NCBI GenBank assembly: GCA_002070605.1
Contig: MWDO01000023.1
Span: forward strand, 1 to 42,480
Source of the DNA: Spirochaetes bacterium ADurb.Bin133
Lineage (GTDB): Bacteria > Spirochaetota > GWE2-31-10 > MWDO01
Reading direction: 5' to 3'
Length of the DNA: 42,480 nucleotides
This document shows positions 33,423-42,480 of the stretch, one piece after another. The notes beneath the pieces are model-generated. The model was given only the letters and a program-made list of their open reading frames with translations. It was not told the origin of the DNA and searched no databases. Position 1 is the first letter of the stretch. Each line of letters starts with the position of its first letter. The position numbers and the translations under genes are program-made.

Positions 33423-34268
33423 ATGAATCATATAAAATCTTTTAGTTCCTTAAATAGGACTAAAGCCCATAGAAAGGCTCTATATAGAAATATGACGACT
33501 TCGCTTTTAAAATATGGGAAAATTGAAACGACTGTAGTAAAAGCAAAAGAGCTTAAGAAATTTGCGGAAAAAATATTAACCAGAGCGAGAGTAAAAAATC
33601 TTCATAATATCAGACTAATAAGCAAAGTAATTCAGGAAAAAGATATTTTAAAAAAACTTTTTGACGAAATTGCTCCCAGATATGTCGGCAGGAACGGCGG
33701 ATACACGAGAATTATTAAGTTAAAAAAGAGAAAGGGCGACGGAGCCGATATGGCTTATATCGAACTGTTAACCGACGAGATACAAACGACAAAGAGAAAG
33801 AAGAGAAAAGATACGGGCGTCGGCAAATCGGTAAAATCGGATAAATCTGCGGATGTGAAAGATACGCAAAAGAGCGAAAGCGCCGTTAAATTAACGTCGC
33901 CTCAGTTTCAAATAAGCTCAAAAAATGATGAGGAATTTAAATATGAATTGAAAGACGCCGATAACAATACGTTGATCTCATGCGACGTTCAAAAAGATAA
34001 AACTGCCGTAACGGGATTGATCGAGTCTGTTAAAAAGTATGGCGCGGATGCAAAAACCGTTAATTTAGATAGCGACGAAGAGGTTAACGTAACCGGCGCT
34101 AAATACGAAATATATTCGGATAAAGACGGCGGCGTTAAATATAGATTGAAGTCGGAGAGCGGCGAGATAATAGCGGTTAGCTCGGTTTACAAAACTACGG
34201 AAGATTGCGTTCAAGCCATAGAAAAACTAAAGAGTATCGTAAAAACTGCGGAAGTTAATGAAAAATAG
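33423..34268 (+). CDS. rplQ: 50S ribosomal protein L17 fused to two DUF1508 (YegP-like) repeats
   Basis: Residues 1 to about 118 are a complete L17 core (LNRTKAHRKALYRNMTTSL, RNGGYTRIIKLKKRKGD, AYIELL). After a Lys/Asp-rich linker (about 120-156) come two similar units, about 159-213 and 226-275. The second reads YEIYSDKDGGVKYRLKSESG, then EIIAVSSVYKTTEDCVQAIE, a close match in pattern to DUF1508/YegP domains (a strand pair plus helix with an E-I-I-A-x-S core). The first (EFKYELKDADNN) is more diverged. Total 281 residues against roughly 115-180 in usual bacterial L17 proteins. The reading frame is continuous. The tail would sit on the 50S surface near the tunnel exit; its function is unknown. 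Confidence 0.9.
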   Translation: MNHIKSFSSLNRTKAHRKALYRNMTTSLLKYGKIETTVVKAKELKKFAEKILTRARVKNLHNIRLISKVIQEKDILKKLFDEIAPRYVGRNGGYTRIIKLKKRKGDGADMAYIELLTDEIQTTKRKKRKDTGVGKSVKSDKSADVKDTQKSESAVKLTSPQFQISSKNDEEFKYELKDADNNTLISCDVQKDKTAVTGLIESVKKYGADAKTVNLDSDEEVNVTGAKYEIYSDKDGGVKYRLKSESGEIIAVSSVYKTTEDCVQAIEKLKSIVKTAEVNEK

Positions 34269-34273
34269 ATAAA

Positions 34274-34903
34274 ATGCAAAGCAAAAGAAAAATGCTTCCA
34301 TCAAAAGGGAAGCATTTTTTATTTTTAACGTCGTCGATTATACATCTTATTATTATTGCGTCGATTATATTTATAAAAGAGCTAAGTTTTATTGTCGTTT
34401 ACGAGTTTATCTTTTATTTGGCTTTTAAAAATTTCAATGCTAAGCAATTTTTAAGAATACTTATAATTTTTTTCATTATTTTTATTTTAAATATTTTTGG
34501 CGCGGACGGTAAAATTATAAAAGAGTTTTGCGGATTTTATATAACGGATAAAGGCGTTCTCAACGGATTAGTAAGAATATCCGCCCTTTTTTCAACGGCG
34601 TTTTTTACGGTAAACATATTAAAGGAGAATAAAGCGCTGTTTTTTTCAAGTCTTAAAAATGAAAAAATTGCGTTGTCAATATCGTATTTTTATTATTTTT
34701 TTGAGCTGATACAAAATAAGTTTAGTATAAAATTGTTTTATCGGAAAATACTAAAATCTCTTCAATCGAAATATTATTCTCAATCTAATACTATATACGA
34801 AGTAAAAATTAAAACAAAATATTTTATATACAACGGCTTAATCAGCGCTATCGGCGTTGCGCTATTAATTTATAAAATAGTTATCGATATACGCAGCCGT
34901 TAA
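34274..34903 (+). CDS. Small multi-span membrane protein, possibly EcfT/CbiQ-like
   Basis: The ORF encodes 209 residues with likely membrane spans near 14-34, 36-51, 59-76, 97-115 and 184-204. The segment TDKGVLNGLVRISALFSTAFF loosely recalls the G-x-x-x-G-x-x-x-x-x-R pattern in T components of energy-coupling-factor transporters, but no ATPase or substrate-binding gene is near, and the match is weak. Its first codons (ATG at 34274, alternative at 34292) overlap the rplQ terminator hairpin, so its expression by read-through would be low. Its end overlaps the opposite-strand DUF115 gene by 39 bp. It is probably real given its consistent membrane character, but this is not certain. Confidence 0.55.
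   Translation: MQSKRKMLPSKGKHFLFLTSSIIHLIIIASIIFIKELSFIVVYEFIFYLAFKNFNAKQFLRILIIFFIIFILNIFGADGKIIKEFCGFYITDKGVLNGLVRISALFSTAFFTVNILKENKALFFSSLKNEKIALSISYFYYFFELIQNKFSIKLFYRKILKSLQSKYYSQSNTIYEVKIKTKYFIYNGLISAIGVALLIYKIVIDIRSR
34288..34326 (+). terminator. Terminator after rplQ, inside the next ORF; possibly bidirectional
   Basis: AAAAATGCTTCC (34288-34299) pairs perfectly with GGAAGCATTTTT (34308-34319) around an 8-base loop, followed by TTATTTTT-like bases. It begins 20 bases after the rplQ stop. On the minus strand the same stem is followed by TTTTTCTTTT, so it could also end the leftward DUF115 operon. Both candidate starts of the membrane-protein ORF lie at or just before this stem. Confidence 0.87.
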
Positions 34904-36349
34904 ATCTTGTATGTCAGTTTTAATATTCTTAGAAAGAATAAGAGGCAACATAGGGGTTATGTCTCTATTTATAAAATCATTTATTATATTTTTAAAATAT
35001 ATTTTCTCTATTTGACGGAATCTAAAAGGCAATATCTTCGCGTTAACGCTGTTTTTAGATAACAACTCTTCTCCGGAGATAAAAACAAAGTTTGTAAAAG
35101 GCGAAGCGGAAATGGTAAAAACTTTTTTAGAAATACGATATTCTGAAAAAGATTGTAAATAAGAATTTGTTTTCCAGTTATTTTTTTCTATAGTTGAAGC
35201 GTTTTTATACAATATTTTTGAATATAAGAGATCGGGGGATTTTATAAAATCTTGAGCGGTAATAAAAATATCGTTTAAGTAAGAGTTTTTTGAATACAAA
35301 TAATCGTCAAAAATCGCATAGTCTATGCCGACGGTAACAATATCAAATTCTTCAAAATATTTAGTAAAAAATTCGACGATCGCCATACCTATGTTGCGGG
35401 ATTGCGAAGATAAACTATATGTTTTCCACCCGGCTTTTTCAAAAATATTTTTGAAAGGGTGATCTGAAAAGAGTAAAGTATGCGTAAACGGAGCGCTAAG
35501 ATAAATCGGCGACGTAAAGCAAGAAAATACTCTAATTTTTGATTTTCTAAGAAAATGCATATTTGTAAAATTCTGACAATCAAAAGAGAAAATTGAGTCG
35601 GGAATTATCTTGTTTTTTAGCAAAATCAAAGCGGAAGTATCGGTTGCCGCTATATAAAACCTATCTCTAAAATCTCTTATAAAATCAAGATTTTGATCTA
35701 AAGAGTATCCGGCTCCGGTTATTAAAATAGTTTTATCCGAGATAGCAAGATCGTCAAAATTAAAGTAATTATCGTAGTATTTAACGACGTTTTTCATAAT
35801 ATTGCGGTGCCACAAATAACCAAATTTTTGTATTGTGTTTTTTTCAACAAGATAGTTATTAAAAACATCCGCTATAAGCCGCTTTATTCGAGCTATATCT
35901 TTGGTAAAATTATTATTAAAATATTGAGCCGATATAACGTTTATATGAGATTTATACTCGGTATGTATAACATTGGAAATTTCGGAAATATCTATTAAAA
36001 AAAGATTGTCCGTAAAATATAACGACAGATCGACGTTAGACAAAATGTTTTTGATCAAAGGATAGTTAAAAACTATCGAATACAATTTTGTCGTTTTTGA
36101 AATATTAAAGAGATGATATCCCGCTCCAAAACCTATATCGAAGGTTAGATACGAATCGGCAAGTTGAACGTTTTTTAATTGCTCGGACTCTTTAAAAGGA
36201 TAATATGAAGAGCATAGAGATACGTTATTAAAAAAAGGGACTTTGACTCCGTCTTTTGAAAGTTTATAAAACACGTCGACGTTTTCTGCGTTTTGTAGAA
36301 GATTAAATAGTTTTTTTGAAACATATCTGACGTTATTTGCTAAAATCAA
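34865..36349 (-). CDS. DUF115 (MptE/Maf-like) protein, last gene of the leftward operon
   Basis: The 494-residue protein has a Rossmann-like N-terminal segment DIGFGAGYHL (71-80) and a central DUF115 domain with TGAGYSLDQNLDFI (211-224), a DTSALILL helix and PDSIFSFD (250-257). DUF115 proteins include archaeal 6-hydroxymethylpterin diphosphokinase MptE and bacterial Maf flagellin glycosyltransferases; the length and N-terminal region fit the Maf group better. The start is TTG at 36349, overlapping the preceding gene by 17 bp with AAGAG upstream, so it is translationally coupled. It may transfer a nonulosonic acid or other sugar to flagellin or a surface protein; that is inference. No ATG lies near the N-terminus. 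Confidence 0.78.
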   Translation of the reverse strand: MILANNVRYVSKKLFNLLQNAENVDVFYKLSKDGVKVPFFNNVSLCSSYYPFKESEQLKNVQLADSYLTFDIGFGAGYHLFNISKTTKLYSIVFNYPLIKNILSNVDLSLYFTDNLFLIDISEISNVIHTEYKSHINVISAQYFNNNFTKDIARIKRLIADVFNNYLVEKNTIQKFGYLWHRNIMKNVVKYYDNYFNFDDLAISDKTILITGAGYSLDQNLDFIRDFRDRFYIAATDTSALILLKNKIIPDSIFSFDCQNFTNMHFLRKSKIRVFSCFTSPIYLSAPFTHTLLFSDHPFKNIFEKAGWKTYSLSSQSRNIGMAIVEFFTKYFEEFDIVTVGIDYAIFDDYLYSKNSYLNDIFITAQDFIKSPDLLYSKILYKNASTIEKNNWKTNSYLQSFSEYRISKKVFTISASPFTNFVFISGEELLSKNSVNAKILPFRFRQIEKIYFKNIINDFINRDITPMLPLILSKNIKTDIQDLTAAYIDNYFIN

Positions 36350-37772
36350 TTGAAGCGCTCTTAATCTTTTTTAAAAATATTTTATGCATATCCGAATCGT
36401 CGGAATAGTATAAATAATCTTTTAACATATTTTTATCGTTATATAAAATACTATTTAGTTTAATTATTAATTCTTGATCGATAGTTTTTTGTTTTATTTC
36501 TAAAAGATCGCGTAGGTCGGATTTGTTTTCAAACAGATCAAAATACTCCGCGCCGACTTTTTTGATTTTATCGGACAAAGGGTTGTAACATTTGTTAGAA
36601 GTTAATATTTCAAGATCGTATTCTCTATCGATAAAGTGTTCGTAGTAAATTTTTAAAGAGATGTCGGCGTAAAAAGATTTATCCCCTACGGAGTAATAAA
36701 ATTTATCTTTTTGAGCGGAAATTCGCTTGAGATGAAAATCTATCGATTTGAAATAATCGGCTTGAGAGTAGTATTCTTTTTCAAAATAGCCTTCGTTGAT
36801 ATGACTTCTGTTTTTATAATATGAAAAATCAAGCCCGACGATTATGGAGGTATCAAAGCCTAGCTGAGGAAGAATGTTCAAAAGATTAAAAATTACGCTT
36901 CCTTCCGGAGGAGAGGAAACGGAGTTTGCGTCGTCAAAAATAAATTTATCCGGAAAATTTTGGTAGTTAAAAAAGATAAATTTATAGTTGTTTAATGAAA
37001 CTATCGTCGGTTGGATAGAAAGCGGGGCGATAGCTAAAATATTTTTTTTAAATTTCGCCATATGATAATACGAAGGATAACCCGGATCTGTAACTATCGC
37101 CAAATCCGGCGTAATCCCCGACGCCTCCAAAAAAGGGAGAGCCGAAGGGAGAGCGCATAGGTAAGCTTTTTTCATCGCGGATTTGATAAAATCAATATTA
37201 TCTATCAAACTATAGCCCGACGCGATAATTAACGCCGGGTTAGTCTTTTTAGCGGATTTGCATAGAATATTAAATTTATTATTAGCGTAAATATTTCTTA
37301 AAAAATTTCGCGTTTCGACAAATCCAAAATGCTTCTCAGTTTTATTAGAAAGCGTAATTTTATTCAAAAGATTTTTTATCTGTTTTAAATATTGTAAAAA
37401 AATCGGAGCGTTTGTCTCTATAAAAGGAAGCCAAATGAAAAGTTCTATTTGAACCGGATCGATATTGTTTTGTAAGATGCGCGCTTCAAGTTCGTTTAAC
37501 GAGCGGCATCTTAAAATTTTTGAAGAGTCCGAAGCGTCGTCAAAAATTATCGGCTCAAAGGATAGTATAGTTTGATACCCTTTTTTTAACAGGGCTGCGT
37601 TAACGAAGTCGGCGCCGCAAAACGTAAGCGCAAATTTACCGGATTTACGCTCAGATTTTTCAATAAAAAGCGCCGCTTCTTGGTAAGGATCGTAATTAGA
37701 ATATAAGTATTTATCGGCGAATTTGTACGTAATAAAACCTTTTCTACCGGTTACTTTTAGGTAGTCAGTCAT
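36333..37772 (-). CDS. DUF115 (MptE/Maf-like) protein, second paralogue
   Basis: The 479-residue protein has the same core as its neighbour: ALIIASGYSLIDNIDF (180-195), SALPFLEASGITPDLAIVTD (210-229), and a later conserved block with FDTSIIVGLDFSYYKNRSH. Here the second Gly of the nucleotide-loop motif is Ser (ASGYSL against GAGYSL). The two proteins are clearly diverged, so they probably act on different substrates or as a heteromer. It starts with ATG overlapping the preceding gene's stop by 8 bp (ATGACTGA), a strong sign of coupling. Confidence 0.78.
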   Translation of the reverse strand: MTDYLKVTGRKGFITYKFADKYLYSNYDPYQEAALFIEKSERKSGKFALTFCGADFVNAALLKKGYQTILSFEPIIFDDASDSSKILRCRSLNELEARILQNNIDPVQIELFIWLPFIETNAPIFLQYLKQIKNLLNKITLSNKTEKHFGFVETRNFLRNIYANNKFNILCKSAKKTNPALIIASGYSLIDNIDFIKSAMKKAYLCALPSALPFLEASGITPDLAIVTDPGYPSYYHMAKFKKNILAIAPLSIQPTIVSLNNYKFIFFNYQNFPDKFIFDDANSVSSPPEGSVIFNLLNILPQLGFDTSIIVGLDFSYYKNRSHINEGYFEKEYYSQADYFKSIDFHLKRISAQKDKFYYSVGDKSFYADISLKIYYEHFIDREYDLEILTSNKCYNPLSDKIKKVGAEYFDLFENKSDLRDLLEIKQKTIDQELIIKLNSILYNDKNMLKDYLYYSDDSDMHKIFLKKIKSASIDFSK

Positions 37773-39774
37773 TAATTAAGTTTAACAAAAGCGTTAGCGC
37801 GTTTTCCGCATCGTTTGGATAGGAGGCGGTCTTAAACGATATTTCTATATCTTTAGAGCCGACCGCCTCAAGAAAAATATTTTTTATCCCTTCTATTATG
37901 CTTTCAGATTTTTCAATAGCTTCTTCTTTATTAGTATTAGGCAGTATAGAGATTATGTCTAAATTGTCAAAAACATTGACGTATCCGTCGGGATCAATCG
38001 AGTTTATGACTAAAAATTGCGCTTCGTTGCGAAATGAAGGTAGATCAAAATTTGGGTGCGCGTCTTTTAGATCGTCGAGGTTTGAAAAAGACAATTTAAT
38101 CATAGAAATAGTATTTACTAAATCTTTTGAGATTTTTTCTTCTAAGAAGTATAAAAGTTTTTGGTACTTCGGATCTATTAATGAATCAATATCGTCAACG
38201 TCGCCGGAGTTTTCTTCATCTAAAATTTGAGGATCTTCCGGTAGAGTCGTCTCAATATCCGGCGTATAAAGTTCTACGTCGTTTTCTGAATTTTCTTCTA
38301 ATTCTAAAGTTTGAGTATCGCTAAAGTTGTCGATGCTATTAGAAATATCAAGATTTATTTGATTGTTTTCATCATCGGAAATTTCTTCAAATTCAGTTTC
38401 GTTCGGCGAAATGTTGTCGTTATCTTTTTCAAAATCATCAATCGCAGAATTAATTGAAGCCGATTTGTTGGATTTAAGCGAGTTGTGTTGAAAAAGATTG
38501 TAAAGCAGAGGTCCGTTAAATCTGCCGAAAATCGCTAAAGACTTGATACATTCGGAGTCGGGAATGTTGCCGGAAATCATTTTAAAACCAAGAAAAACGC
38601 CGATAATCCGAGCTGAAAAAATAAAAGGCGCATAAAGCTGAAATTCCGAATCAGATTTGTCGTTATCTGATAAAAGATCGTTAATTATATCAAAATTATT
38701 ATGCTCCGGCAATATGAGATAAGACTTCTCTTTTGCTAAAGTTTTATAAATATTATTGAATTCTAAGTCGAAAGATAATTTTTGTTTTGATTGTTCGTCG
38801 ACATTTTGACCGCTCAAGAAAACAAATTTTTTAACAGGCGGCGAAAAAATTAATAAAGCGGATTTGGAAAAACCAAATTTCTCAGAAATTATCGATAAAA
38901 AATTGTCGTAAGAATCCGAGCCTATCTCAAGAGTCGCCGTCTCTTTCGAAGCGGCGTTTAATATTTCAAGATAATCTACTTGTTTACTAATTATCGGTTT
39001 AAAATTTTTTAACTCATTATTCGCCGTAAATTCATTATAGTTTTCATCATTAATTTTTTTAAGGATTTCGCTGTTTTTTTCGGCGTCGTCGTCTTCGTTA
39101 GAAGAGTCTGAAGAAAACGGAATGTCGGAGTCTAGATGCGAATCGGCTTCGCTTAAAATTTCTATGTTTTCATCTTCTAAATTTGTAAAATCTGCGTCTA
39201 TTAGACTATCTTCGTCTTCAACCTCTTCAACAAGAAGAGCGTCCGCGTCGGTCTCTGAAAAAGAGCGTTCGTTTTCAACGGCGCTATTCTCTTCAGCGTT
39301 ATTAAGAAAGTTGCTCGACTCTTCCGTAATAATATCTTCTATTGAGTCGCCGTCTAAAGCGACGGCGGATTGAAAATCGTCATCTTCTTCTATTTCATCA
39401 TCTATTTCATTATCTATTTCATTATCTATTTCATTATCAAATTCTTCATCATTAAATTCGCTAGTATCGTCGATACTTATATCAACTTCTTCGATTTTAT
39501 CGTCTTCTAAATACAACTCCGGTTCGTAGTCGCCGTCTAAAATATCTTCGTCGTTATCCGAATCGACGTCCATAACGGCTGGTTCGGGTTGTAAATTTAA
39601 GGTCGCGTCTGCCGGATTGTCTAAAGAATCCTCGGTATTATCCTCTAGTAAAATTTTTTCATCGCTCAAAATGCTTGACGCATACTTTTCAGCTCTTTTT
39701 AATAAACCAATTTTAGGTCTATTGAGAAATTTTTCTCTGTAAACAGCCGCTTTTTTATATAATCCTAAGCCCAT
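37765..39774 (-). CDS. Acidic protein with GAF-like and degenerate GGDEF-like domains
   Basis: Three parts are visible in 669 residues. Residues 1-40 are basic (MGLGLYKKAAVYREKFLN); about 42-250 are low-complexity and rich in Asp/Glu/Ser, including DNEI repeats (113-124); about 264-430 resemble a GAF sensory domain (YAPFIFSARIIGVFLGFKMI near 381-400); and 545-669 have the outline of a GGDEF domain (IISILPNTNKEEAIEKSESI, TASYPNDAENALTLLL), but the GGDEF loop reads FDNLD, so diguanylate cyclase activity is not expected. It may sense or bind a ligand or scaffold the two DUF115 proteins, whose genes overlap and follow it. The domain calls are by pattern only. Confidence 0.65.
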   Translation of the reverse strand: MGLGLYKKAAVYREKFLNRPKIGLLKRAEKYASSILSDEKILLEDNTEDSLDNPADATLNLQPEPAVMDVDSDNDEDILDGDYEPELYLEDDKIEEVDISIDDTSEFNDEEFDNEIDNEIDNEIDDEIEEDDDFQSAVALDGDSIEDIITEESSNFLNNAEENSAVENERSFSETDADALLVEEVEDEDSLIDADFTNLEDENIEILSEADSHLDSDIPFSSDSSNEDDDAEKNSEILKKINDENYNEFTANNELKNFKPIISKQVDYLEILNAASKETATLEIGSDSYDNFLSIISEKFGFSKSALLIFSPPVKKFVFLSGQNVDEQSKQKLSFDLEFNNIYKTLAKEKSYLILPEHNNFDIINDLLSDNDKSDSEFQLYAPFIFSARIIGVFLGFKMISGNIPDSECIKSLAIFGRFNGPLLYNLFQHNSLKSNKSASINSAIDDFEKDNDNISPNETEFEEISDDENNQINLDISNSIDNFSDTQTLELEENSENDVELYTPDIETTLPEDPQILDEENSGDVDDIDSLIDPKYQKLLYFLEEKISKDLVNTISMIKLSFSNLDDLKDAHPNFDLPSFRNEAQFLVINSIDPDGYVNVFDNLDIISILPNTNKEEAIEKSESIIEGIKNIFLEAVGSKDIEISFKTASYPNDAENALTLLLNLIND
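39400..39435 (-). repeat. In-frame 12-bp tandem repeat (three perfect copies)
   Basis: ATCTATTTCATT is repeated at 39400-39411, 39412-39423 and 39424-39435, with degenerate copies on both sides. It encodes (D-N-E-I)n in the acidic region of the GAF/GGDEF-like protein. Copy-number changes would keep the frame. Confidence 0.9.
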
Positions 39775-39786
39775 ATATAACCCATA

Positions 39787-42192
39787 CTAGTTCTTGATAT
39801 TTAATTCTTCAAATAATTTTCTATAAGTCTCAAACGCTTTAGACTCGGCAAATTCTTTAATTTTCTCTTCCGGCAACGAGTCTAAAAGCTGATCTAAGTA
39901 CGATAATACCGACTTGACTTCGGATTTCAATAGTTCAGAATCGCCGCCTACCCGGATAGACGCGTCGTCCTCTTTTGATTCCATCTCGTTTCTTAAATTG
40001 TTGTAAATCTCCTCCTCTTCGGCAGAAGATAACCCTATAATTTGAGTGGAATCTTCCGCTTCAGTCAAATCCGACTCGTCGACTTGCTTCAAATCGGCGT
40101 CAAAACTTGACATATCGATGGTTTCCGATTCTTCTTCGATTGTCTGAGGCTCTTCAGATAGATCGACGGAGTACTCCTCTTCCATTTCTTCGTCGGATAT
40201 TTCGTTTTCTATTTCTAGGGCGTCGACCTCTTCCTCTACGACGCCTACATCCTCTAAAGAGTCGGGGATTTCTTCGTCTAACATAGCGTTGTCTTCCGAA
40301 GAAGTTTCTATGATCTCGGTGCTGTTCAAAATATTGTCCAGTTCGTCGTTGGAAAGCCCTATAACCTCTTCCTCCGTCTCTTCGTCGATAGGTTCCACGC
40401 TCGGAATATTTTCAAGATTAATATCTTCCACGCTTCCCAATTCGTCTTTGGCGGTCTCTTCTTCTTCTGTAGATAAAGTTTCCCCTTCAATATCTAGGAG
40501 TTCCGAGTCTTCTTCAATATCGATATCGGAACCAAAAATGTCTTCGGTATCAGTTAGCGGCGATATAGAGGCGGAGGTATCGTCTAGCGAGGCGTCTAAT
40601 CCGACGTTTTTTATATCGTCGTCGATCTCCGGCATATCGTCGTCGCCCGGAAAAATGACGTCTTCAACGTCCTTCAGTTCCGTTTCGTCTAAAGAAATAG
40701 CGTCCGTGGCGGACTCGTCGACGTCTATATCGTCTATGTCGTCTATATTTATCTCGTTCAGATCGGAATCGTCGATCTCTTCAATGTCCAGATCAAGTTC
40801 GCCGTCGGTTGATATAGAGTCTCCGGACGGCGTGTCGGAAAAATCGTCCTCGTCGGATAGATTAATCTCTTCTTCCGCCATTCTAGCGAGCTCTATTTCA
40901 GAGTCGGAAATTTGATCTTCCGACAAATCTACGTTAGAAGAAGCGTCTTCCGATAGTTTTAACAGATCGTCGTCGGATACTAAGTTGTCGTCTATATTTG
41001 ATAAGGCTTCGTCTTCCATCTCTTCTATGTTAAAATCTTCAAAGTCGTCTGACGTATCAAGATCGGAAGCTAGGTCGTCGCCAAAATTTTCTGAAACCGA
41101 AGCGCTATCCTCGTCTAAATTATCCAATTCGAAATCGTCGTCCAATGAAATATCTTCATCTTCGGAAGTTATATCGGCAAAATTGTCGTCGATAGAAGAC
41201 AAATCGTCGTCAGAACTTGATTTTAAAAATTCGTCCTGTTCGTCGTCGATTGTAAGAGGTTTTCTTTCCGGCAACGATATATTGAGAATCTCTTCGTCGT
41301 TACTCATTCGTTCTTCGATTTCATCAATATCAAGTTCGGTTTGATCGATAGTTTCGGACTCGATATCGTCAAAACTGTCTAACCCGGATAAATTTGGCGT
41401 TAATTGGACGTCGTCGTCGTATCCGGAGTTAGTAAAATCTATAGTTATCGGACCTTGTTTAAGATCGACGCCAAATTCGTCATCCAGACTCTCTATCGCT
41501 TCCCCTTTATCGTCGATCATATCTATGCTAAAATTGTCCAAATCTTCTTCTATAGCCGCGTCGTCTTCGGCGTAAGATAACGACAATTCGTCTTTGAGTC
41601 CAAGGTCTTCTTTAAGATTCAATTCTTCGTCCAAAGAAAAATCATCATTTGAAATTTCTGAATCTATCTCGTTAAAACTCTCTTCTAAGGATAAATCTAA
41701 ATCGTCGTCTTCCAACGTCGACCCGGTATCGTCGAGGTTTAAATCGTCCAGTTCGTCCGTCGAATCCATAGTAATCTTATCTTCCTCAAGTTCTCCGTCT
41801 AAAGAAAAACTGTCGGTTTGAAAGTCTTCGTCGGTATCTTTTCTTTCCAGATGAGAATTTTCAAAATTGTCTATATCGCCGTTTAGATTCATATCTTCTT
41901 CCTCGATACCTTCCAGTTTTATATCTTCCGAATCAAAATCGTCAAAATTTACGTCAATATCGTTATTCAAATCCTCTTCCGAACTGAAATTTTGATAATC
42001 TTCGGAAGATATTTCCGACTCCATCCCGTTGAGATCCAAATCTTCGGTATTTAATAAATCGTCCTCGAGATTATCGATAGAACTTAGATTATCGGAGTAA
42101 TCATCCTCATTGATTAAAAGAGTATCCGATTCTAAATCGTCCAAATTTAAATCCAAATTGTCTAAGTTTGAGTTATTAATATTATTTGACAT
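39787..42192 (-). CDS. Long, highly acidic low-complexity protein with conserved C-terminal motif
   Basis: Nearly all of its 801 residues are Asp, Glu, Ser, Leu, Ile and Asn in irregular repeats such as DLNLDDLESD, DNLEDDLLN and EEDLDNFSID. The only globular-looking part is the C-terminus, SVLSYLDQLLDSLPEEK, then FAESKAFETYRKLFEELNI, a helical motif that I recall at the ends of several treponeme proteins. No signal peptide or membrane span is visible. It is probably disordered, with the C-terminal helix pair as a docking element. First gene of the leftward operon, with AGAGG before the ATG and the next gene 12 bp downstream. The function is unknown. Confidence 0.72.
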   Translation of the reverse strand: MSNNINNSNLDNLDLNLDDLESDTLLINEDDYSDNLSSIDNLEDDLLNTEDLDLNGMESEISSEDYQNFSSEEDLNNDIDVNFDDFDSEDIKLEGIEEEDMNLNGDIDNFENSHLERKDTDEDFQTDSFSLDGELEEDKITMDSTDELDDLNLDDTGSTLEDDDLDLSLEESFNEIDSEISNDDFSLDEELNLKEDLGLKDELSLSYAEDDAAIEEDLDNFSIDMIDDKGEAIESLDDEFGVDLKQGPITIDFTNSGYDDDVQLTPNLSGLDSFDDIESETIDQTELDIDEIEERMSNDEEILNISLPERKPLTIDDEQDEFLKSSSDDDLSSIDDNFADITSEDEDISLDDDFELDNLDEDSASVSENFGDDLASDLDTSDDFEDFNIEEMEDEALSNIDDNLVSDDDLLKLSEDASSNVDLSEDQISDSEIELARMAEEEINLSDEDDFSDTPSGDSISTDGELDLDIEEIDDSDLNEINIDDIDDIDVDESATDAISLDETELKDVEDVIFPGDDDMPEIDDDIKNVGLDASLDDTSASISPLTDTEDIFGSDIDIEEDSELLDIEGETLSTEEEETAKDELGSVEDINLENIPSVEPIDEETEEEVIGLSNDELDNILNSTEIIETSSEDNAMLDEEIPDSLEDVGVVEEEVDALEIENEISDEEMEEEYSVDLSEEPQTIEEESETIDMSSFDADLKQVDESDLTEAEDSTQIIGLSSAEEEEIYNNLRNEMESKEDDASIRVGGDSELLKSEVKSVLSYLDQLLDSLPEEKIKEFAESKAFETYRKLFEELNIKN

Positions 42193-42282: not shown

Positions 42283-42311
42283 ATTTTAATGAATTATTTT
42301 TTAATTGTCAA
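42283..42311 (-). promoter_or_regulatory. Promoter of the acidic-protein/DUF115 operon
   Basis: Read on the minus strand, TTGACA (42311-42306) and TAAAAT (42288-42283) have a 17-bp spacer, giving a predicted start near 42276 and a leader of about 84 nt. The -10 box lies inside the perfect palindrome ATTAAAATTTTAAT (42277-42290), which could be an operator. A weaker TATAAT occurs further upstream on the same strand. Confidence 0.62.
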
Positions 42312-42396: not shown

Positions 42397-42480
42397 CCGT
42401 CGGTATTTTGGGGCGGGGAATCGACGCATATGTGTCAATTTTATCCTTAACGCCATATGTGTCAAACCAAAGCCGCATAT
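42397..42480. repeat. Dispersed palindromic module, copy C (inverted), running off the window
   Basis: The strand-reversed CCGACGG/CCCCAAAA block is at 42397-42414. It is followed by GACGCATATGTGTC (42423-42436, near-perfect palindrome), another CATATGTGTCAAA at 42454-42466 and a truncated GCATAT at the end of the window (42475-42480). It is the same family as the blocks at 62-318 and 2196-2300. Confidence 0.75.

Follow-up and report, generated by a model that had tools for sequence, protein, structure and literature searches.

A conserved spirochaete operon of two Maf-like proteins, an acidic disordered protein and a GAF/pseudo-GGDEF protein, with a possible role in flagellin glycosylation

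The flagellin FlaB of Treponema denticola is reported to be glycosylated at two sites, VEVSQL and DRIAS (PMC7431986), and both the assembly of its filaments and motility reportedly require the glycan (PMC9481697); glycan-like densities are described between core and sheath in Leptospira (PMC13144727), and Maf acts before chaperone binding and export (PMC4065374). The question addressed here is which enzyme stands behind spirochaete flagellin glycosylation and how it is controlled. We approach it through a four-gene operon in a 42,480-nucleotide stretch of DNA (the window) from Spirochaetes bacterium ADurb.Bin133 (contig MWDO01000023.1, positions 1 to 42,480), in which genes for an acidic, largely disordered protein (ACID) and for a protein with a GAF and a degenerate GGDEF domain (gene 2) precede those for two Maf-like proteins, DUF115A and DUF115B (A and B). 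In the literature available in excerpt, we found no functional study of this operon and no paper on spirochaete flagellin-glycan transferases; DUF115 and Treponema were not named together in what the search returned, and the excerpts on TP0172-TP0176 had gene fusions as their subject.

All four genes lie on the minus strand. ACID, the first, encodes 801 amino acids (39787..42192), and gene 2 (37765..39774) encodes 669, which by open reading frame (ORF) and structure model form a GAF domain, a degenerate GGDEF domain and two acidic disordered arms. DUF115A, of subfamily A (36333..37772; 479 amino acids), and DUF115B, of subfamily B (34865..36349; 494 amino acids from a TTG start), complete the operon. 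ACID and gene 2 are spaced by 12 bp, and the next two junctions are overlaps of 8 bp and then 17 bp. This arrangement, along with an acidic 801-residue protein and two DUF115 proteins, had been proposed in a first-pass annotation made from the sequence alone, and the ORF coordinates, the composition and the Pfam scores given below bear it out. Our favoured reading, which we would give about an even chance of being right, is that the operon is a conserved spirochaete module that glycosylates flagellin in the cytoplasm by means of two paired Maf-like proteins, with ACID as an acidic hub and gene 2 as a GAF/pseudo-GGDEF sensor.

The operon itself is real and phylum-wide. A scan of named genomes yielded 80 loci, the best 80 of 271 confirmed candidates, all titled as spirochaetes (Treponema, Breznakiella, Gracilinema, Spirochaetales and others). 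Gene order was counted on 80 ACID ORFs, from 79 of these named loci and the window, nine of which were set aside because under 5 kb of contig remained and no more than one DUF115 gene was present. In the 4.5 kb that follow ACID, the remaining 71 loci carry two DUF115 genes in 67 cases, three in one and one in three, that is, at least two in 68 of 71. The first-pass annotation had regarded the four genes as one functional unit and suggested looking for their order in other spirochaetes; the order recurs across the phylum, in agreement with that view. In G008, from the window's own taxonomic order, the complete four-gene row is kept in this order beside ribosomal protein L17, and in G007 and G004, of that taxonomic order too, gene 2, A and B stand in a row. 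In the 1,139,633-bp genome G058, the row reads ACID, a protein starting with MGL, two DUF115 proteins and a membrane-anchored degenerate GGDEF protein. We tentatively take G058 to be T. pallidum, with neighbouring genes read as troR, gpm and tpp15; the locus numbers, near TP0172-TP0180, are therefore approximate. The flanks of the operon differ among genomes, with L17 in the window, tpp15/troR-like genes in G058 and GAPDH/PBP-like genes in G307, and a gap of -1, which indicates coupled starts, was found in 29 of 77 loci.

Both DUF115 proteins belong to PF01973, a Pfam family formerly called DUF115 and now MptE-like, with 74.9 bits (8.5e-21) for A and 57.4 bits (2e-15) for B against a cut-off of 34.6; the MptE-like domain covers 36813-37310 in DUF115A and 35312-35803 in DUF115B, both on the minus strand. 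The structure model of DUF115B (pLDDT 81, 36 sequences) matches Maf from Magnetospirillum (5mu5) over the whole chain (Z 19.3, rmsd 7.0, 447 aligned), followed by archaeal HPPK (Z 13.9) and the sialyltransferase CstII (Z about 9), and no family ranked above Maf among the PDB fold matches listed. In profile searches, 5mu5 was the top match for both A (1.4e-10) and B (1.8e-15). The cut-off of the NCBIfam PseD model (NF050051) was missed, with 23.6 of 670 bits (1.8e-5) for A and no match for B, and because of this score, despite their membership in PF01973, we do not file A and B as PseD.

The two proteins differ at positions that are conserved within each subfamily. One alignment column holds H in 72 of 72 A sequences and Y in 73 of 73 B sequences, and two further columns hold D (99%) and Q (96%) in B as against S (69%) and G (96%) in A; 13 other DUF115 proteins have D (92%), Q (92%) and H (62%) there. 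In the window, DUF115A keeps the H and has lost the D and Q positions, whereas DUF115B keeps D and Q and has Y for H. A tree of 155 domains, in which some loci are duplicates of one genome, groups 72 A domains with one other sequence (support 0.87) and 70 B domains with one other (0.77). Judged from these alignments and this tree, A and B are two ancient paralogous subfamilies, and because their conserved residues differ reciprocally we infer that they form a pair with divided labour, the catalytic residues being putative.

Full-length NeuB (E 1e-48 or better) is encoded in 30 of 32 genomes, G075 having none and G223 a partial match (1.1e-9). Of 25 genomes searched for DUF115, it is present in all eight with DUF115, versus three of the 17 in which DUF115 was not found. 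The NeuB of the window's own genome has a family match of 1.6e-73 and stays under the NCBIfam equivalog cut-offs for NeuB and PseI, and a cytidylyltransferase domain was found in this genome and in G058. Together with the Maf and CstII fold matches, the co-occurrence with NeuB supports the first-pass idea of a glycosylation machine. Both genomes encode a fused cytidylyltransferase-methyltransferase of 822-862 amino acids (L223:6131-8599, C7 of the window's genome, and L224:6328-8916 in G058), which is a candidate enzyme for producing an unusual, methylated CMP-sugar; in the window's genome it sits behind a SPASM-domain protein and a CheW-like gene.

The acceptor side was compared in 33 distinct flagellin copies from 14 genomes, 30 of them (11 genomes) outside family f36. 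Going by the FliG pattern, we tentatively take f36 to be Borreliaceae-type, f49 Sphaerochaetaceae-type and f11 Brachyspira-type. Outside f36, serine stands at both the VEVSQL and the DRIAS site in 26 of 30 copies, and the other four have one serine (D/S in G000, S/K in G032 and G042, N/S in G077); two of the three copies read from the window's genome have both. The f36 flagellins (L225-L227), from genomes in which no DUF115 was found, carry E and D at the two sites in three of three cases, possibly as a charge substitute for a lost glycan.

The conserved C-terminal module of ACID and FliG tend to occur together. Among 392 genomes of the phylum, 263 have both, eight have ACID only, 85 have FliG only and 36 have neither (Fisher p 1.4e-13, without correction for phylogeny). 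Six of the eight ACID-only genomes are incomplete or fragmented assemblies and two, G361 and G370, are sound. The FliG-less genomes listed with high completeness belong nearly all to f49, a listing that leaves out 24 more, and many of the FliG-only genomes are f36 and f11. Among 25 chosen genomes, DUF115 is present in eight (three f11, two f50, one f51, one f49 and G058) and was not found in 17 (three of three f36, nine of ten f49, three f44, G361 and G370). In G042 and G032, the gene immediately before ACID encodes FliS (Pfam 1e-38); in G032, gene 2 is followed by a FapA-type gene. The earlier suggestion that the unit serves flagella is supported indirectly, by the FliG association, the FliS neighbour and the acceptor serines.

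ACID is 37% Asp and Glu, has a pI of 4.05 and contains neither Cys nor Trp (800 residues analysed). Apart from PKK at 0.95, no Pfam or NCBIfam model matched it up to E 1. Two parts of it are conserved. The first is the C-terminal module of about 46 amino acids, KSEVKSVLSYLDQLLDSLPEEKIKEFAESKAFETYRKLFEELNIKN (39790..39927, minus strand), for which a profile built from the last ~48 residues has matches in 271 of 392 genomes across the phylum, or 146 of 167 by genus, almost always with a single copy per genome; a second module in the window's own genome was considered and rejected, as the profile matches one place only. The second is a FliM/FliY-like short motif, ETEEEVIGLSNDELDNILNSTEIIET (40303..40380, minus strand), which is conserved in distant ACID proteins. 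Written as DETIALTGDELDNILNTADFTEE, it resembles the N-terminal peptides MTEVLSQDEIDQLL and ISQAEIDALL of flagellar-operon ORFs that we read as FliM and FliY. With patterns that, as for the gene-2 motif below, were written after inspection of the sequences, this sequence or close forms of it occur in 65 of 80 ACID proteins by a loose pattern, compared with 2.9 in shuffles, and in 34 of 80 by a strict one, compared with one of 909 other ORFs. That sole match (LTGDELDNIL) lies in an 856-amino-acid ORF of L079, which is taken for the missed ACID of that locus. The disorder and the conserved short motifs suggest that ACID might act as an acidic scaffold. In G245 (L207:5434-11694), an acidic protein without the C-terminal module precedes two DUF115 genes and a membrane protein, and gene 2 was not seen.

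Gene 2 is 25% Asp and Glu. Its structure model (built on 10 sequences; the pLDDT averages 59 and lies mostly at about 70-94 in the folded parts) contains a GAF domain at 38470..38991 (3ci6_B, Z 16.4, rmsd 3.4, 163 aligned) and a GGDEF fold at 37768..38169 (4iob, Z 14.8, rmsd 2.5, 132 aligned), both on the minus strand. For the protein of the window, Pfam gave nothing up to E 1, and a relative in L189 matches the Pfam GAF model (4.2e-11). The GGDEF fold is there and the GG(D/E)EF signature is not; because the signature loop reads FDNLD, gene 2 is not expected to be a cyclase. The first-pass description of a GAF/degenerate-GGDEF protein is therefore confirmed by structure. The GAF fold suggests that gene 2 may be a ligand sensor. 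At its N-terminus, a short motif is repeated (GLYKKA and GLLKRA, 39679..39774, minus strand) in two predicted helices. In 48 of 62 loci, the first 90 residues contain a strict form, G-L-L-x-[KRH]-[AIT], versus 0.11 in shuffled sequences, and in 55 of 62 a looser form, versus 2.3; copies are often repeated, as in the window. We also looked for a second protein starting with Met and GLLxKA; a degenerate pattern matched several genomes, and since the flagellar-operon matches fall inside ORFs read as FliR (the frame was checked by hand for one), we claim no second carrier.

Taken together, the favoured module might work as follows. DUF115A and DUF115B would work as partners, conserved residues lost from one being retained in the other, and together they would move a nonulosonic-acid-type sugar from its CMP donor onto serines of flagellin. 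The part of ACID would be to hold the enzymes and gene 2 together, and perhaps also nascent flagellin or a component of the export apparatus or switch, through the C-terminal module, the FliM-like motif and the long acidic arm. Gene 2 would dock via its GLLxKA motifs and, through a small molecule bound in the GAF domain, regulate the complex, the GGDEF domain being no cyclase by its signature. In a more far-reaching version, which we consider rather unlikely, ACID would be a phylum-wide disordered flagellar hub whose FliM-like motif reaches a CheY-type or switch protein and whose C-terminal module or acidic arm gathers an obligate heterodimer of Maf-like proteins, whose active site would be shared, together with the GAF/pseudo-GGDEF sensor. 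The glycosylation of flagellin would thereby be tied to motor state or a second messenger, and the acceptor serines of f36 would have turned acidic where the machinery is missing.

Several observations weigh against the favoured reading, and some of them fit other explanations. The four genes cannot be treated as inseparable, as the first-pass annotation had implied, since the ACID/gene 2 pair and the DUF115 pair stand apart in several genomes: in G005, ACID-gene 2 lies on one contig and A-B on another, in G003, B is apart from gene 2-A, no DUF115 was detected downstream of ACID-gene 2 in G338 (with queries from the window only), and none was found beside ACID in G042, G032 and G017 or beside the Brachyspira-like ACID proteins. 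Inseparability is further weakened by the two genomes without FliG and DUF115, G361 and G370, which keep an ACID of 206-212 amino acids (L193:9007-9645 and L198:8774-9394) in a neighbourhood that resembles the operon surroundings in G307 and from which the two DUF115 genes and gene 2 seem to have been lost; because of them, ACID cannot be a flagellin factor only. A DivIC gene lies upstream of ACID, divergently, in T. putidum and G193, a hint at cell division. Several of these points, together with a penicillin-binding protein nearby and the long acidic disorder with its single conserved C-terminal module, would also fit a real ACID/gene 2 unit that forms a hub at the cell end or division site, PopZ- or FimV/HubP-like, and places flagella or the septum, with the DUF115 genes as frequent but optional passengers. 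We think this unlikely, as optional passengers would have to be reconciled with at least two DUF115 genes in 68 of 71 loci, and ACID has no match among the Pfam and NCBIfam families. That unrelated genes were simply kept side by side by chance, with which the broken order in a few genomes would agree, is very improbable in view of the same order amid different flanks in the window, G058 and G307 and of the coupled starts.

Other points concern the target of A and B. NeuB-type enzymes also serve surface polysaccharides, full-length NeuB is found in some genomes without detected DUF115, and the FliG statistic ignores kinship. The window's genome encodes two further, longer DUF115 proteins (open frames of 611 and 595 amino acids) that are nearer to PseD (3e-17 and 3e-14) than A is, and either could be the flagellin enzyme. 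It is conceivable, if unlikely, that these two glycosylate flagellin, that A-B acts on another target (a surface polysaccharide, the sheath or a motor-collar protein) and that ACID and gene 2 organise an envelope enzyme. Against this, DUF115 was found in one of ten FliG-less f49 genomes, in none of three f36 genomes and not in G361 or G370; a genome of only 1.14 Mb keeps four copies, and FliS adjoins ACID in two genomes. It is because of the split loci, the DivIC neighbour, the ACID of G361 and G370 and the two Maf-like proteins with better PseD scores that we infer, rather than assert, a flagellin role for the A-B pair in particular.

Around the operon, a promoter-like TTGACA-17-TAAAAT lies upstream of ACID (42283..42311, minus strand), a match to the consensus only in a region rich in chance matches, and TTGACACATATG occurs twice at 42423-42480, near the contig end before ACID. 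On the other side, 33423-34268 encodes ribosomal protein L17 with a C-terminal extension in which DUF1508 is matched in two stretches (Pfam 6.6e-14); this variant comes close to the NCBIfam 'sunset domain' L17. Between L17 and DUF115B, a membrane-like ORF of 209 amino acids (34274-34903) runs convergently to DUF115B with an overlap of 39 bp; it is found at the same position in G008 and G001 and has only a weak CbiQ match (0.18).

The gene cluster is largely unstudied, and the favoured reading gives it a testable job. It names candidates for the spirochaete flagellin glycosyltransferases, predicts that two chains make up a Maf-like enzyme and brings in a further two proteins, partners of unfamiliar type that are kept even in a 1.14-Mb genome.

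Compared with known systems, ACID resembles the polar hubs PopZ and FimV/HubP in its long acidic disorder and small conserved C-terminal part, yet it has no notable sequence match to Pfam or NCBIfam models. Its motif LSNDELDNIL is similar to the N-terminal CheY-binding peptide of FliM/FliY (LSQDEIDQLL and ISQAEIDALL in spirochaete flagellar-operon ORFs), but it lies inside a disordered arm and has Q to G/N and I/L swaps, the likeness being one of sequence. Gene 2 resembles PelD, the c-di-GMP receptor of the Pel polysaccharide system, which is among the fold matches of its model: both combine a GAF and a degenerate GGDEF domain in one chain, as a sensor beside sugar-transfer genes. Unlike PelD, gene 2 has acidic arms and GLLxKA motifs, and no RxxD I-site was seen before its FDNLD loop.

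The closest described systems are the Maf nonulosonic-acid transferases, such as those of Magnetospirillum (5MU5), Clostridium botulinum (CbMaf) and Aeromonas (Maf1). For CbMaf, co-expression in E. coli with a supply of CMP-sialic acid or KDO has been reported (PMC11339370). The operon shares with them the whole-chain fold (B), the MptE-like domain (A and B), a nonulosonate pathway in its own genome and the flagellin acceptor serines. In contrast, A and B are shorter (479 and 494 amino acids, compared with a chain of 632-666 residues) and are two diverged adjacent paralogues, each without some of the conserved residues, and we know of no Maf system with acidic or GAF partners. With A and B in the PF01973 superfamily, the operon is a variant of Maf-type glycosylation.

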